A stretch of 64,000 bases of DNA, from assembly GCA_002786065.1 (NCBI GenBank), contig NHNY01000019.1, forward strand, positions 124,001 to 188,000, read 5' to 3'. Both the position numbers and the translations under genes were made by a program. Of the stretch, positions 3,085 through 27,696 are shown in pieces; position 1 is the first letter of the stretch; each line of letters starts with the position of its first letter. A model generated the notes under the pieces. The model worked only from the letters and a program-made list of their open reading frames with translations, did no database searches and had not been told where the DNA came from. This DNA is from Microcyclospora pomicola (taxonomy: Eukaryota; Ascomycota; Dothideomycetes; Capnodiales).

Positions 3085-4998
3085 ATGTCGACAGCAGTCC
3101 AGGATTTCTCTGCGCCTGCGCGGGCCGGGACTTCGCCCATCTCTCCTGGCGGTGCGGATGTAGACAATAGGATGCACTCACCCGTTGTACGAGACGGCGT
3201 TGGCCGCGATCGTAGAGGAAGCACAGTCTCGGCTATCACATACGCGGATGCTCATAGCCTACGGCATAGGAGCGTAGGCCGCTCCAACACTGTCAAAACT
3301 TATCATCCGCCCGAGCATCCGTCATTGCAGCCAGGCGCTGAGCCAGGGATCGATGCGAATGCCGAAGACGAAAAGGATCCGCCACACCTCGCCGACTTGC
3401 GAGCAGACTGCGATATCCGCATCATCGATTTTGCTGCTACCGGACGTCCATCACAGATATACACCAAAAACGCGGACCTGAAGAGGGTTCTCGACATCCC
3501 ACGGCCATCGAATCTACCATGCCGCTGGATCTCAGTCAATGGTTTAAGCTGGGATGTAATCAAGCCTCTCGGACAGAAGTACAACCTGCACCAATTAGCC
3601 CTTGAAGATCTGACTCGCACGCGCTCTCGCACCAAGGTCGATTGGTATACTGATCAAGCTTTCATACTGCTCACCTTGCAGAAGCTGGTGCGACTGCACA
3701 GACATCATGGACGGGAAGAAGATTGTGACTGCACGATAGGCGCTGGTGAAGATCGTGAAGCGGATGATGAAATTGACGAGGTCGACGAGAAGCCGAAACC
3801 AGCATCGAGACGCCGTTGGAGAGACATGTGGGCGAAGAAGCGCCGAGCCGACATTCTCCCCCGGTACCTCGACCAAAATATGGATGGCAAAGTTGATGAG
3901 TTTGTGCAAGCACACACCGGCCTCTCCGCAACGTCTCCAATCAAGCCAATCCGCACATTACACAGATATGAGAGCGCACAGATCCCTGAACACACTGCTT
4001 TTATGGAGAGACACAGTGCGCTATCGGAGGAGAATCTAGCAGTTAGTGTCGAACAGGTCTCCATCTTCCTGCTCGCGAACAACACGGTTTTGTCGTTCTT
4101 CGAGCACTCAGCAGAAGATATCGAAGACCCTATCTACAAACGACTTGCGAGCGAGGAAACGATGTTGCGCAGAAGCTGTGATGCCTCACTACTTCTACAG
4201 GCCATCATTGATGCCATTGTCGACTTGGCAATGCCAGTGAGGGATGCGTACAACAAATCCCGGAAGGAATTGCAAGTCGACGCCATGACAAACCCAGACA
4301 TCAGAACCTCGCGAGCCTTACATATCTTCGGCGAGGAGATCGACATGCTGCAGAACTTATTCAAACCCATCGTTCACCTAGTCAATGCGCTTCGAGACCA
4401 CAATAACGAGCCTGTTGCGACTGCACCACCAGTCATTCCTGCCTCGAATGCTTCAAGGGATACCACTGATGACGTTCACACCCACCACCATGGCCACCAA
4501 GACGCTCCACGCGACCGCTCCGGAGAGCCCAGATTTAACAGATCCATCTCCGAGTTCAAGCGCACGACTCTCAAGCGTACTCAGACCGCCACGACCGTCT
4601 CAATCACCCCGCTAGCACACACCTATTTCGGCGACGTGCTCGATCATTGTATCACCATGATTCAAACGTTGGAGCAGATGGACGCTTCAGCTTCCAACAT
4701 CTCGACCTTGATCTTCAACACCGTCGGCGCCAAGACCAACAATTTCATGATGATCCTGGCCGTCGTCACCGTCTTCTTCGCCCCGCTGACGTTCATCTCC
4801 GGGTACTTTGGCATGAACTTTGCCGGTGGTTCGGGCTTGTCCCATCCGTTCGCCTTCTTCTGGGTGGTGGCCATTCCGAGTTTGGTCGGCTTCATGCTCA
4901 TTGTCTTCGCGACCATGCTGTGGGACAGCATTGAAGACATGTGGAAGAAGCGGGGGATCCTAGCGCATCGTCGAAGTCGTAGGCAGACTCCGTTGTGA
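3085..4998 (+). CDS. CorA-type divalent metal (Mg2+) transporter
   Basis: An intronless 637-residue ORF starts at ATG 3085 (context CACAATGTC). The N-terminal ~500 residues are soluble and charged, as in the cytosolic funnel of CorA channels. The last ~100 residues carry two hydrophobic segments, and the first ends in the diagnostic GMN motif (YFGMNF, residues about 576-578). The order soluble domain, TM1, GMN, TM2, short basic tail (KKRGILAHRRSRR) is that of the CorA/ZntB/Alr/Mrs2 superfamily, which forms pentameric Mg2+ (sometimes Zn2+ or Co2+) channels. Length and wording resemble the plasma-membrane CorA-like proteins of filamentous ascomycetes rather than mitochondrial Mrs2. A His-rich stretch (HTHHHGH, residues about 470-476) lies in the cytosolic part just before the stalk. 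Substrate choice cannot be read from sequence. Confidence 0.9.
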   Translation: MSTAVQDFSAPARAGTSPISPGGADVDNRMHSPVVRDGVGRDRRGSTVSAITYADAHSLRHRSVGRSNTVKTYHPPEHPSLQPGAEPGIDANAEDEKDPPHLADLRADCDIRIIDFAATGRPSQIYTKNADLKRVLDIPRPSNLPCRWISVNGLSWDVIKPLGQKYNLHQLALEDLTRTRSRTKVDWYTDQAFILLTLQKLVRLHRHHGREEDCDCTIGAGEDREADDEIDEVDEKPKPASRRRWRDMWAKKRRADILPRYLDQNMDGKVDEFVQAHTGLSATSPIKPIRTLHRYESAQIPEHTAFMERHSALSEENLAVSVEQVSIFLLANNTVLSFFEHSAEDIEDPIYKRLASEETMLRRSCDASLLLQAIIDAIVDLAMPVRDAYNKSRKELQVDAMTNPDIRTSRALHIFGEEIDMLQNLFKPIVHLVNALRDHNNEPVATAPPVIPASNASRDTTDDVHTHHHGHQDAPRDRSGEPRFNRSISEFKRTTLKRTQTATTVSITPLAHTYFGDVLDHCITMIQTLEQMDASASNISTLIFNTVGAKTNNFMMILAVVTVFFAPLTFISGYFGMNFAGGSGLSHPFAFFWVVAIPSLVGFMLIVFATMLWDSIEDMWKKRGILAHRRSRRQTPL

Positions 4999-23031: not shown

Positions 23032-23036
23032 ATGAT
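23032..23036. repeat. Left target-site duplication ATGAT
   Basis: ATGAT directly precedes the left inverted repeat and recurs directly after the right one (27692-27696). This is as expected for a 5-bp staggered integration. Confidence 0.7.
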
Positions 23037-23075
23037 GACGGAGCTCAATTGCGCTCAGCTCGCTCTTATTGACAA
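23037..23075 (+). repeat. Left terminal inverted repeat
   Basis: 39 bp matching the reverse complement of 27653-27691 at 35 positions by eye. It begins GACGGAGCTC and ends with the first TGACAA motif. Confidence 0.8.
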
Positions 23076-23159
23076 TCTGAGATCTCATATGCGAAAGGTG
23101 GTTATATATTGACAATGTGGTGACTACACCTCATCAACAGCAGCTACAGCAGCTATAGC

Positions 23160-23237
23160 TGCCCTCTTGCGGTCCTCTTCGCCGTCCTCTTCGCTGTCCT
23201 CGCCGTCCTCGTCGCAGTCGTCGCAGTCGTCGAATCA
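23160..23237 (+). repeat. Pyrimidine-rich short tandem units before the integrase ATG
   Basis: Imperfect 9-12 bp units of the type GTCCTCTTCGCC and GTCGTCGCA run up to the integrase start codon. This is the likely 5' leader of the integrase transcript. Confidence 0.5.
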
Positions 23238-24469
23238 ATGGCTCCACCAGCAATCAATCTCGAGCAGTTTCGAGACTTTATCACAGACTATATCGCAACC
23301 GGCCACACACAAGCAGACGTCAAAGAGCAATTGAAAGAGCTATACAATGTGGATGTGACTATTGCTACACTCCGGCGCAGACTCTCAGCATGGTCTGTAG
23401 TGTCGCCGCTGTCGAAGCCTATAGATGATCCCGAGCTACACGCTGTTATCTCACACCACTTCCATGTCCTTCAGCTCACAGATGCGGAGAGTCTGCGACT
23501 GCTTAGCTATGAGGGGATCCAGCTCTCTATAGCCTCGCTGCGCAGGTTGCGCGCGAAGCTAGGTCTCAAGAAGCAGGTACCAGCTAGCCAGCACCAGGAA
23601 GATCGAGAGCGTCTAGCAGCGCTGTTGAAGGAAGAGCTTGACAATGGCCGCTGCGAGAGTCTTGGCAGGAGGCAGCTATATCGATATATAAGGCAGCATC
23701 ACAACGTGGTTAACCGGTACGTGGTCAACCATTGCGCGGTGCTTGTTGCAGCCTATCGCTGTATACTGAAGTCTATAGGGATCGCCTGTACGACGTAGCT
23801 GTCCAACTAGATCCTGCTAGACTCGAGCTGCGGACTCGCAAAGCAAAGGTCCACCGTGGTGCTGTAATTGTGCTAGGACCAAACTACGCTTGGTCTATGG
23901 ACGCGTACTGCAAGTTTGAGCACTAGGGGATCCAAATCTACGCAGCAGTTGACGTGTATTCACGCCATATCATCTGGCTATATTGTGGCATTACTGGCCG
24001 TACAGCAATCTCCGTACTCGCGCAGTACCTCACCACTGTCACAGAGGGAGGATTAATCCCTGTAGAAATCCGGAGCGATCGGGGCGCAGAAACCACTGCA
24101 GCCGGAGATGCTCACTTCGCGATTAGCAAGGAGCTACGTCGGAGAGCCAGTGGCGAGGAGCTGCAATTTAGTGACTGCTTTCGCTATGGCACAAGCAAGC
24201 AGAACCAGCGTATTGAGACCTTCTGGGGTCAGATGGCACAGGGTAGTCTGAATCGATGGCGTGACGCTTTCCTGGCTATGAGCGATCACTACGAGTACGA
24301 CAGAGAGGCGCTTGCAGACCGGATTGCGCTCATCTTTGTGTATGTGCCTATCATCCGTGCCGAAGCAGCTGCTTTTGTCAACCTATGGAACAACCACAAG
24401 ATCCGTAAGCAGTCAAATCGGAGCCATTGTATCCCTGGTGTGCCGCATGTTCTTTATCACTACCCCTAA
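23238..24469 (+). pseudogene. rve-type DDE integrase/transposase (degenerate)
   Basis: The N-terminal part has two helix-turn-helix-like segments (ATLRRRLSAW and IASLRRLRAKLGLKK). The catalytic core follows, with first Asp in AWSMDAYCKF, then AAVDVYSRHIIW, second Asp in IRSDRGAE, and Glu in NQRIETFWGQM, 45 residues after the second Asp. This D,D-45-E order with the YSRHI and SDRG motifs is the retroviral-integrase-like (rve) superfamily. It resembles proteins annotated only as integrase core domain proteins in many fungal genomes. The reading frame is interrupted in about two places, so this copy is probably inactive. It is the only enzyme of the element and would cut and join at the 39-bp TIRs. 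The exact transposon superfamily was not settled. Confidence 0.8.
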
Positions 24470-25123
24470 GAGTCTAATAGCGAGCAGTGCGGCATTGCGG
24501 TTGATGCAGGCCATCCGAGTCTACTGCAACTGAAAACTCAGATCAGCGGTTTTAGTGCGACCCCCCCCACTAGCTCACTGATCCTCTCTCTGTGCCTCTC
24601 TGCTGATATATATCGCAGATATCGACGAATACCTGCCAATTAAGACCCTGACCTTCTGTCAAATCGTGCTGCGAGACGCGCAATATCCGGAGGTTATCAA
24701 TGGCAGTGATCTTGACGTTGCCAATGGCCGTCGTCTTCATCAATCCGCGTACCTCACGCTCCGCGAGGCTCTGACGAGCCACCAGCTCAGCGGTGAGCTA
24801 CCAGTGCTGGCGGAATCCGATAAGCTATATGCGCCCCGGCGGACACGACCAGGGGAGCTCTATTAGCGCTCTCATTGCAGCTCACTGCCTTGGCGTCCTT
24901 GATGCCGAGTATCGAGGTCCAGGGATATATGGCTATATATCAATGGCATCCACCACCCTTCGCTGGCTTGCACAACGCGACCCCATCCCTCACGAGCTCG
25001 CACAACGCTCTTCTATAGCTCGCAATGCCTTTATGGTCGGATCCATGTCCTTCTGACTATCGGATCCATAGCCAGCGTCACCCAACTAATCGATTTTGCC
25101 CTTAATGTGGTGCTGCCAACAGC
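24470..25123 (+). other. Interior of the element, residual coding-like sequence
   Basis: Short open frames at about 24666-24866 and 24793-25056 overlap in different phases. They have coding-like stretches but no complete gene, and may be a decayed second ORF or an intron-bearing 5' part of the next ORF. Confidence 0.35.
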
Positions 25124-26098
25124 GTGCTTGGTCCACTAGCAACGAGTGTGTCTACGCCGCCCTTATCAGACGATGGAGGTTCGCATACCACGTTTAGCGC
25201 TCGCCAACCGACTCTCGCGGAGAACCATCGCCAGCGTGGGTTTATAAGGATGCTCCCACCAGTCGCAACAGCAGCGTCACTGCCGCTCTCACAGCGCGTT
25301 GTGGCCGCACCCGTCACCAGCTGGCACGTAACAGCGACTCGCGTACCAGCTCCTGCAGCTCACAGTCCTACTGCGACCTTCAACCTCTCTGTCTACACAC
25401 AGGAAGTCACTATTGTCAAGGTTAGGGGCAAGCCAGATAAGTGGCACTGGGGCACACAGGTGTTATATAGCCAGTTTGGCACTGGCTATCGAGAGGATCA
25501 GCTCGCGCAGTTGCTTCGCAGTGAGGGTCAATCGCTGATTGACTTCTTCCTTAGCCAAACCAAGGATGATGTTATTAGCTATCCAAGTGTGTCACTTGAC
25601 GGCTACCGCAGCCACTACTTCGTCATAGGGTGGAATGATGACACTGCTGCGCCAATCAAGATCACTACCGCGACTACAGAGCGAGCCCTCGACGAGCTGA
25701 TCCCCTTTCGGAGACTAAGGACCAATGTCTACGACGTCAAGATATCTATTGAGAAGGACGACGAGCGAGCCACCGCAGCTGCAGCCTTTGTTAGCCGGAG
25801 TCTCGCAGCGAGCGCGTTGCGAGCGCGCGCGAGAGAGCAATATGACCTGCCGAGCCGTCCAAGCACACGGAATGGCGCGCCGGATAGCATCGAACCCTCA
25901 AGCCCCTTAGCTGAGCGAGAGCTAATTCCGCGAGTCAAACCGGAGCCGGAGAAGCTATCTATGCCAGTAGCTAGCAGCACTACTGGCCGCAGTGCTGCCA
26001 CTGCTATCGACGTTGCTTCAGACAGTGACAGTGACACTTCTAGCATTGAGATAATGAAGCAGTTGATCCAGCGCAAAAAGCAACAGCGAGCTAGCTAG
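25124..26098 (+). CDS. Element-encoded ORF of unknown family
   Basis: The frame has 324 codons; the first in-frame ATG is at 25250, giving a 282-residue minimum. The upstream frame begins at a GTG, so an upstream exon is possible. The middle part (about residues 85-210) looks like a folded domain: KVRGKPDKWHWGTQVLYSQF, then YREDQLAQLLRSEGQSLIDF, then YFVIGWNDD. The C-terminal third is polar and Ser/Glu-rich, with an acidic DSDSDTS run, and ends in KKQQRAS. There are no cysteine clusters, membrane segments or nuclease motifs that I recognise. Its place between the TIRs makes it an accessory protein of the transposon or a captured gene. It does not resemble any family I can name. Confidence 0.5.
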   Translation: MLGPLATSVSTPPLSDDGGSHTTFSARQPTLAENHRQRGFIRMLPPVATAASLPLSQRVVAAPVTSWHVTATRVPAPAAHSPTATFNLSVYTQEVTIVKVRGKPDKWHWGTQVLYSQFGTGYREDQLAQLLRSEGQSLIDFFLSQTKDDVISYPSVSLDGYRSHYFVIGWNDDTAAPIKITTATTERALDELIPFRRLRTNVYDVKISIEKDDERATAAAAFVSRSLAASALRARAREQYDLPSRPSTRNGAPDSIEPSSPLAERELIPRVKPEPEKLSMPVASSTTGRSAATAIDVASDSDSDTSSIEIMKQLIQRKKQQRAS

Positions 26099-26364
26099 CG
26101 AGCTGAACGAAGTGAACGCAGTGGTTCTACAGGAGCGCTTTTGACTGTCAAGACGGAGCGTAACCAGGACGTGCTTCCGGAGTCTGACAGCGAGCTTGCT
26201 GGCGAGCCATCGCCGGTCTCATCATTGTCACCACCTCCGTCGGATATCTCGCTACCAACCACTAACTAGTTAGTGCCTGCAGCTGCAAAGAAGGTTAAAA
26301 AGCGTCCATTGACAGTTGAGCCATCTCACAGAGTGACAAGAAGACAAGGTCAGCGATAGCTTAT

Positions 26365-26402
26365 AGCATATAGCAGCACATATAGCAGCACATATCACAG
26401 TG
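26365..26402 (+). repeat. Short AGCACATAT tandem repeat
   Basis: About three copies of a TATAGCAGCACA-like unit lie just after the second ORF inside the element. Confidence 0.5.
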
Positions 26403-26472
26403 AGATATCACGTAGCAGCAATAGACAAGTGCACCAAGAAAACGCCTCTCTCCGTACTCTCGCTACAGATCT

Positions 26473-27138
26473 TTAAAAAGAAGCAGAACGCTTCCTCTTC
26501 TGACCACGCGGCGTAGCCGCGACTAACAACCCCTTCAACCCCATCACCTCACTCCTCAACCCAGACACCAACCCCTCCAACGCAGCGACTCTCTCTTCCA
26601 TCGTGGGAGGGCTCGTAGTGGCTGCTTTGCAGCCACTCTTGCCCTTACACTTACAGAAGGCACAAGGCCCTCCCTTCTCCAAAACCTTGTAGGGGACTTG
26701 CATCCCCGGCCTCTTGCACCACTCGCACGGCGCGCTCGCAGCGACGCCGTGGAGGGTCTCCATAATGACCCCTGCGATCGAGTATCGCGCCAAACTGTTC
26801 TTCGCGCTCTTCCTGTCTCTCGCAGAGAGACTCTCGTTGCCAGCAACAGCAACCCACGCATCCCATTGTGCTGCTTTGTAGCACCAAAAATCGCTTGTGT
26901 TGGTGGTGGTAGGGCGGCGGAAAGCGGTGCCATTAAAGGCCTTTTCGATCAGCTCCGCAGCCTCGCGCGCAGCGCGAGTCTGCGGAGGAGTGTAGGGCGA
27001 GGCGGCGGGGCGTGGGGCGGCGGCGGCGGGGCGTGCGGCGGCGGCGGGGCGAGGAGGAGAGGCCAGACGAGAGGCAAACGCGAGTGCTGTTGCTGCGGCG
27101 GTTGCTGCTGTTGCTGCGGCGGCGGCGGAGGGCAGCAT
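26473..27138 (-). CDS. Element-encoded Cys-rich, coiled-coil protein (unknown family)
   Basis: The ORF of 221 residues starts at the ATG complementary to 27136-27138. The N-terminal ~55 residues are Ala/Pro-rich and encoded by a GC-rich simple repeat. A Trp/Ala-containing domain follows (TSDFWCYKAAQWDAWV, about 86-100), then a Cys cluster CEWC...CAFCKCKGKSGC (about 143-175) that could bind zinc. After that come a predicted coiled coil (MEERVAALEGLVSGLRSEV) and a basic RGQKRKR end that may be a nuclear signal. It is transcribed toward the integrase from near the right TIR. Zinc cluster plus coiled coil plus NLS suggests a DNA-binding or regulatory accessory protein of the element. The family is not recognised, and the base composition differs sharply from neighbouring host genes. 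Confidence 0.5.
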   Translation of the reverse strand: MLPSAAAAATAATAAATALAFASRLASPPRPAAAARPAAAAPRPAASPYTPPQTRAAREAAELIEKAFNGTAFRRPTTTNTSDFWCYKAAQWDAWVAVAGNESLSARDRKSAKNSLARYSIAGVIMETLHGVAASAPCEWCKRPGMQVPYKVLEKGGPCAFCKCKGKSGCKAATTSPPTMEERVAALEGLVSGLRSEVMGLKGLLVAATPRGQKRKRSASF

Positions 27139-27175
27139 GGTGGTGGTGGTAGTAGTGGTGGTGGTGGTGCTGCGA
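26995..27175. repeat. GGC/GGT low-complexity tract
   Basis: Runs of GGCGGC, GTGGTG and AGTGGTGG flank and form the start of the minus-strand ORF, where they encode Ala/Pro in frame. Another GGT run lies at about 27280-27298. Confidence 0.6.
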
Positions 27176-27196
27176 TTAACAGCTGTAAAACCTTCT

Positions 27197-27222
27197 GAAG
27201 AAGGGCGCTAGCGCCCTTCTTC
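27197..27222. repeat. Perfect 26-bp palindrome
   Basis: GAAGAAGGGCGCT is followed at once by its exact reverse complement, with no loop. Flanking CCTTC and GAAGG extend the pairing after one unpaired base. It lies ~60 bp upstream of the minus-strand ORF and may be a hairpin, a dimeric factor site or a terminator. Confidence 0.7.
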
Positions 27223-27406
27223 GAAGGTGGAGAGAGAAGAGGCAGAGGGAGAGGCTATGGCGAGTCTTCTTGTTGCTTGTGGTGGTGGTGGTGGTGGTAT
27301 AGCTTTTTTTGAGATCTAAGAGAGCAAAGGAAAAGAAAACCAGCAAAGGAACGGCTGCAATGAATCGATATATAGCTACTAAGAGAGCCTGCGAGAGGAT
27401 TAACTG

Positions 27407-27660
27407 ACAATAGGAGCGCGTTTTCAAGCAATTGCTTCATCAATGACAATAGGAAGCAATACTTACCTTCCCTTGACAATGCGCTGGCGACCATTGCGAC
27501 AGCGTGAGCTGCTGAACGAGCCTATTGAGAGTTAGCATGACATCCACAGTGACAATAGAGCTGCAGAGAGCCGCAATGAGAGTTGATAGTGAGGTTGTGG
27601 TGGTGATGAGGTTGATATTGATGATATATAACCTCATTGTTGAGAGTTGAGGTTGACAAT
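27407..27660. repeat. Subterminal TGACAAT repeats at right end of element
   Basis: TGACAAT occurs near 27407, 27444, 27474, 27548 and 27654, mostly as TGACAATAGG or TTGACAATG. Two more (about 23069 and 23109) lie at the left end. Repeated short motifs next to TIRs are typical transposase binding sites. Confidence 0.55.
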
Positions 27661-27691
27661 GGGAGCAAGCTGAGCGCAATTGAGCTCCGTC
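27653..27691 (-). repeat. Right terminal inverted repeat
   Basis: The reverse complement begins GACGGAGCTC and matches the left TIR. It is followed directly by ATGAT (27692-27696), the second target-site copy. Confidence 0.8.
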
Positions 27692-27696
27692 ATGAT
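27692..27696. repeat. Right target-site duplication ATGAT
   Basis: Exact repeat of 23032-23036 immediately outside the right TIR. Confidence 0.7.

Follow-up and report, generated by a model that had tools for sequence, protein, structure and literature searches.

A 64,000-nucleotide stretch of the Microcyclospora pomicola genome (contig NHNY01000019.1, positions 124,001 to 188,000; hereafter, the window) contains a 4,655-bp element that we consider very likely to be a DNA transposon of the cut-and-paste kind in a filamentous ascomycete with active RIP (repeat-induced point mutation, a fungal defense that mutates repeats), moving by the mechanism proposed below and belonging to a lineage related to, yet distinct from, the IS3EU transposons. 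The element is real and well bounded. It occupies window positions 23037 to 27691 and is complete, with terminal inverted repeats (TIRs) at its ends, inside an exact 5-bp target site duplication (TSD). The original prediction, made from the letters of the window, had described this duplication (ATGAT), and both copies were confirmed at 23032 to 23036 and 27692 to 27696. It had also described inverted ends with 24 identical outermost bases: the left TIR (23037 to 23087, plus strand) and the right TIR (27641 to 27691, minus strand) agree at 24/24 of these, at 35/39 over the first 39 bases (counted by eye), and at 45/60 over the first 60. Between the ends lie three open reading frames (ORFs): a transposase gene, ORF1, and two unfamiliar conserved genes, ORF2 and ORF3.

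We searched the genome (23,372,697 bases in 58 contigs, with the window on contig C11) for further copies. The window element and its copies are called family 1; families 2 and 3 are diverged relatives in the same genome. By DNA search, family 1 has five full-length copies in it, besides several partial ones. The ends were also searched for as a pattern, which gave 42 matches at two or fewer mismatches, 31 of which were taken as ends of the type found in families 1 and 2; the 11 left out each had two mismatches, and a reversed control pattern also gave 11 matches (4 + 7). The original prediction had suggested looking for more copies that share the ends and have 5-bp TSDs, and these were found: all nine end pairs on the same contig had identical 5-bp flanks. 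Each of the five full-length family-1 copies has a perfect TSD of its own (ATGAT, GTGAG, GTTCC, ATAAC, and CTTTG). The same is true of two short ones, 781 and 752 bp long (TTCGG and GAGAG), and of two copies from family 2 (TTTCG and GAAAG), with about 13 kb of other sequence enclosed in the GAAAG copy. Another 12 ends, which lie on different contigs, form six flank-matched pairs (CATAC, CAAAA, GTAGG, CTAAG, GCGCC, and GTCGG), with about 0.04 such matches expected by chance among 6 × 7 comparisons (hand arithmetic); these pairings were made with the flanks already in view, and the end at C10:1823 was oriented to fit. A single end of the 31, on C46, is unpaired. The termini read GACGG..CCGTC in all 15 paired copies of families 1 and 2. 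Because copies carry their own perfect 5-bp TSDs in 9/9 same-contig pairs, the TIRs and TSD of the window element are not a chance arrangement. TIRs, a TSD of fixed length, several copies, and a DDE transposase are all present, as in TIR cut-and-paste DNA transposons.

Some copies lie in more complex surroundings. On C14 (386421 to 424068), one copy of family 1 has about 37.6 kb in its interior, and its pieces show an 8-base overlap (one difference), which suggests a nested insertion with an 8-bp duplication. Nearly identical foldback sequence, with a GACGG-type terminus at its end, forms the starts of C29 and C34 (bases 1 to 484), and the 5-bp flanks there are also found at ends on C55 and C9; contigs therefore seem to break inside elements of the family 1 and 2 type.

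ORF1 (23238 to 24866, plus strand) is modeled as one spliced gene of about 498 amino acids with three exons (23238 to 23716, 23779 to 24548, and 24619 to 24866) and GT..AG introns of 62 and 70 bases, the integrase region noticed originally being its middle; we infer this gene model, like the roles of the accessory proteins below. Two in-frame stops interrupt it (23924 and 24467). For the core, the Pfam model rva_4 scores 94.5 bits and rve scores 25.8, the latter falling short of the cut-off. The N terminus scored 23.2 and 21.7 bits against Clr5 in two scans (cut-off, 22.3) and had a winged helix-turn-helix (HTH) match under the cut-off. The D, D, and E motifs of the original prediction are invariant in 15/15 aligned sequences. 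They are spaced by 58 and 45 residues in families 1 and 2, window copy included; the second gap, from D to E, is 41 residues in family 3 and 68 in the aligned sequence P0001. A protein database search with the transposase found at least 12 relatives among 7,995 scored candidates, all of them rva_4 proteins. Plasmid matches of the relative P0006 point toward an IS3-like transposase, 9 of the 12 matches listed being annotated as IS3 family, but were not significant (E = 0.04 to 1). PDB sequence searches with alignments of the three ORFs gave 1, 5, and 0 matches, none meaningful, and scans of viral and prokaryote genomes with the transposase alignment gave 10 and 13 pattern matches, none confirmed.

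The two other genes had been predicted in part. The ORF on the same strand as the integrase is present, although its extent had to be revised: ORF2 (25025 to 26359, plus strand; about 444 amino acids) reaches beyond its 330-residue open frame and holds three internal in-frame stops (25103, 26096, and 26267). The cysteine-rich ORF on the opposite strand was borne out as it stood: ORF3 (26473 to 27138, minus strand) is open, encodes 221 amino acids from the first ATG, and appears zinc-cluster-like and coiled-coil-like. Family 2, represented at C1:1347540-1352270 by the copy with the TSD TTTCG and 57-bp perfect TIRs, has the same three genes in identical order and orientation, with one in-frame stop each in the transposase and ORF3 and an open ORF2. 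Between the two families, the transposases are 65% identical, the ORF2 proteins 34%, and the ORF3 proteins 45%. The corresponding ratios of nonsynonymous to synonymous differences (pN/pS, with bootstrap bounds) are 0.32 (0.27 to 0.37), 0.66 (0.59 to 0.74), and 0.56 (0.47 to 0.68), with the adverse qualification that they derive from protein-guided alignments, which favor low values, and that synonymous sites are near saturation. As these ratios lie below 1, ORF2 and ORF3 look maintained.

The copies bear the marks of RIP. Relative to the window copy, the four other full-length copies show C-to-T changes (on either strand) at 49, 52, 80, and 83% of CpA sites (from 319/655 to 547/659 per copy). 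Elsewhere, C-to-T changes affect 7 to 26% of CpG sites, at most 26/499 CpC sites (≤5%), and at most 10/726 CpT sites (1%). Other substitutions number 21 to 24 per copy, gaps aside, and the GC content drops from 0.54 to 0.38 among the copies. From this pattern, which points to a filamentous ascomycete as host, we infer that the family spread recently and was mutated afterwards by RIP. Of the five copies, the one in the window has changed least, yet its in-frame stops mean that it is probably no longer autonomous. Elsewhere in the genome, four rve matches of equal score lie in stop-free frames of 1,358 amino acids (C30:236711, C36:111519, C38:88649, and C50:19884); these probably represent a young retroelement little touched by RIP.

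In the mechanism that we propose, the ORF1 transposase would bind the ends through its Clr5/HTH-like N terminus, cut both of them, and join them to target phosphates with a 5-base stagger, which would produce the 5-bp TSD. ORF3, as a putative zinc-cluster/coiled-coil protein, would bind subterminal TGACAAT repeats and help to assemble or regulate the ends; ORF2 would be a second accessory factor, perhaps SUMO linked. The family would have amplified recently before RIP mutated its copies.

TGACAAT repeats lie close to both ends and may serve as binding sites. Two lie on the left (23069 to 23116, plus strand; element positions 34 and 74) and five on the right (27405 to 27660, plus strand; element positions 4369, 4408, 4438, 4514, and 4618). 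Family 1 thus has seven occurrences of the motif, in a single orientation, within 754 subterminal bases (expected, 0.10; at most two in 1,000 Markov sequences), with three more inside the element, and family 2 has three within 589 subterminal bases. For ORF3, the six cysteines of the family-2 protein are spaced 2-8-10-2-7 and followed by a coiled-coil-like segment. The Zn2Cys6 pattern is C-x2-C-x6-C-x5..12-C-x2-C-x6..8-C, which ORF3 may resemble; no Pfam match to a zinc cluster was obtained. For ORF2, a CPxCG-like stretch near the N terminus is accompanied by [VI]KxE motifs, two in each protein at the ORF2 position (shuffle P = 0.003, 0.002, and 0.019 for families 1, 2, and 3, respectively; homology of the family-3 protein to ORF2 is not established). 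No relatives of either ORF2 or ORF3 were found in the protein database at an E value of ≤0.01 among the 7,997 candidates scored for each of them.

Several observations weigh against these accessory roles. TGACAAT was selected post hoc, with the sequence already inspected; simple repeats of the CCACCAC type outnumber it subterminally, and in shuffled sequence some 7-mer reached six copies. ORF3 in the window is without the third cysteine. The broader psi-K-x-E motif is weakly enriched in ORF2 (P = 0.049, 0.087, and 0.055 for families 1, 2, and 3), and motifs like those that interact with SUMO (SIM-like motifs) show no enrichment in it. Structure models are unusably poor both for ORF3 (mean predicted local distance difference test score [pLDDT], 49.1) and for part of ORF2 (mean pLDDT, 37.5).

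ORF3 matches occur at 12 places in the genome and at none of the family-3 loci. A lone ORF3-like gene on C12 (40810 to 41361, minus strand) shares 51% identity with the family-1 ORF3 (pN/pS, 0.54) and 49% with that of family 2 (pN/pS, 0.58). It encodes six cysteines, spaced 2-8-12-2-7, followed by a coiled-coil-like segment. The gene has an apparent intron that is not present in the transposon copies, and its first exon is without a clear start codon. It is possibly a host relative, a domesticated copy, or a relic.

The strongest competing explanation makes the element a strict member of IS3EU, whose definition would then be widened to 5-bp TSDs and G/C ends, and we put this at close to an even call. 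Published marks of IS3EU include TAYGG..CCRTA ends and 6-bp TSDs in rusts (PMC12730594) and termini that are "always" TA..TA (PMC10045372). Family 3 has just such features. The rva_4 model also matches C57, C7, C17, and C28, with a right end of CCGTA at all four. Seven family-3 ends were found by pattern search: the copy on C28 (218259 to 230787; about 12.5 kb) has TACGG..CCGTA ends and a 6-bp TSD, CTGCGG, and the 6-bp flank GCGAGA is common to ends on C40 and C17, giving a 6-bp TSD in 2/2 pairs, with the other three ends unpaired. Membership is favored by the relatedness of the transposases (35% identity between families 3 and 2 over the aligned part), by two introns at the same positions in family 3 as in families 1 and 2 (frames read by eye), and by the ACGG/CCGT that adjoins the terminal base in all three families. 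The transposase is also IS3/IS481-like, with a DDE motif and without the HHCC finger, as in IS3EU and GingerRoot. Against membership, all 15 paired copies of families 1 and 2 depart in both other features: the termini are not TA..TA (or TG..CA, as occasionally in GingerRoot), and the TSD is 5 bp, instead of the usual 6, in 9/9 same-contig and 6/6 cross-contig pairs. Because of their GACGG..CCGTC ends and 5-bp TSDs, families 1 and 2, which look related to IS3EU, are filed beside it and not as strict members. The relationship itself has points against it: it rests on published descriptions and family 3, and the transposase tree, in which families 1 and 2 group together (100/99), is unrooted, with family 3 on a long branch. 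The choice between strict membership and a neighboring lineage is mainly a matter of naming, and strict membership is compatible with the mechanism proposed above.

ORF2 and ORF3 could instead be passenger genes with no function in transposition, which would alter the accessory part of the proposal alone; this seems unlikely. In its favor, the ORF3-like gene of C12 stands on a contig with neither a transposase nor an ORF2 match, and no resemblance could be detected between ORF2 and the ORF that holds its position in family 3: the comparison of ORF2 from families 1 and 2 with that ORF scored 1.0, under the median of 100 shuffles, and in a second comparison, 47 and 115 of 500 shuffles reached the same score. 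Both proteins do start with M-x-x-W or similar and hold C-P-x-C-G or a remnant of it. What speaks against passengers is that families 1 and 2, at a transposase identity of 65%, have both retained the two genes in the same order and that the pN/pS bounds of these genes lie below 1.

The original prediction saw a full-length member of a fungal DNA transposon family that has a gene set to itself, which stands, and likened it to Ginger elements, which does not. Ginger1 and Ginger2/TDD elements are likewise integrase-type DNA transposons with long TIRs and short TSDs of 4 to 5 bp, TDD-4/5 (Ginger2) making 5-bp TSDs, and they are marked by TGTNR termini and an H2C2 zinc finger (PMC2836005). Here, the ends are GACGG, no H2C2 pattern was found in the transposases of families 1 and 2 (one regular expression) and no such Pfam match was obtained, rva_4 scores far above rve, and the transposase is related to that of family 3, with its TACGG ends and 6-bp TSDs; a Ginger element is thus very improbable. 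That the integrase piece of a long terminal repeat (LTR) retrotransposon came by accident to lie between inverted repeats, as the integrase core and the other rve frames in the genome might suggest, is ruled out by the repeated complete copies bounded by TIRs and TSDs, and the original prediction's own LTR alternative likewise finds no LTRs (no direct repeat above 40 bases among the 20 repeat families listed for the region) and, in the scanned ORFs, no match to reverse transcriptase or RNase H, leaving it a negligible probability.

Families 1 and 2 may be a lineage of their own. In it, a transposase of the IS3EU type would have switched its terminal base (G/C in place of T/A) and shortened its strand-transfer stagger by one base, to 5 bases, and it would act in a multiprotein system that includes two new accessory proteins; ORF3, one of these, would exist as a lone host gene as well. 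We offer this as a tentative proposal, more doubtful than not. No 5-bp-TSD, GACGG-ended lineage appeared in the literature surveyed (titles, starts of abstracts, and passages), and one may be in print or in Repbase. TSD length commonly serves as a signature of transposon superfamilies. Related lineages with 5- and 6-bp TSDs in one genome offer a natural comparison for studying what determines the stagger, and if families 1 and 2 are indeed a separate lineage, the cause of TSD length becomes directly testable. With the two conserved accessory genes, more proteins would be known from fungal DNA transposons of the integrase type. The copies also cleanly record RIP acting on the products of a recent burst.

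Among known systems, IS3EU elements, including those of rusts and Tuber (PMC12730594 and PMC10045372), share with this element the IS3-like DDE transposase, TIRs of more than 30 bp, and ACGG/CCGT beside the terminal base, and fungal TET+ IS3EU families also hold extra genes. They differ in the TSD (usually 6 versus 5 bp) and the terminal bases (T..A versus G..C), and the present element carries ORF2 and ORF3. TET/JBP and alpha-kinase gave no match in the M. pomicola genome; control genomes were equally without matches, so absence is not demonstrated. Styx of Zymoseptoria (PMC10853768), compared here by description, is similarly fungal, linked to IS3EU by its authors, and equipped with several coding sequences and 36-bp TIRs, with RIP-like mutations in copies from sister species; it differs in its 6-bp TSDs, its four coding sequences, and a length of 7,927 bp in most copies. 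Within the M. pomicola genome, family 3 is set apart by its TACGG..CCGTA ends, 6-bp TSD, length of about 12.5 kb, and lack of an ORF3 match and shares the rva_4 transposase, apparent introns at matching places, and a downstream ORF at the position of ORF2.

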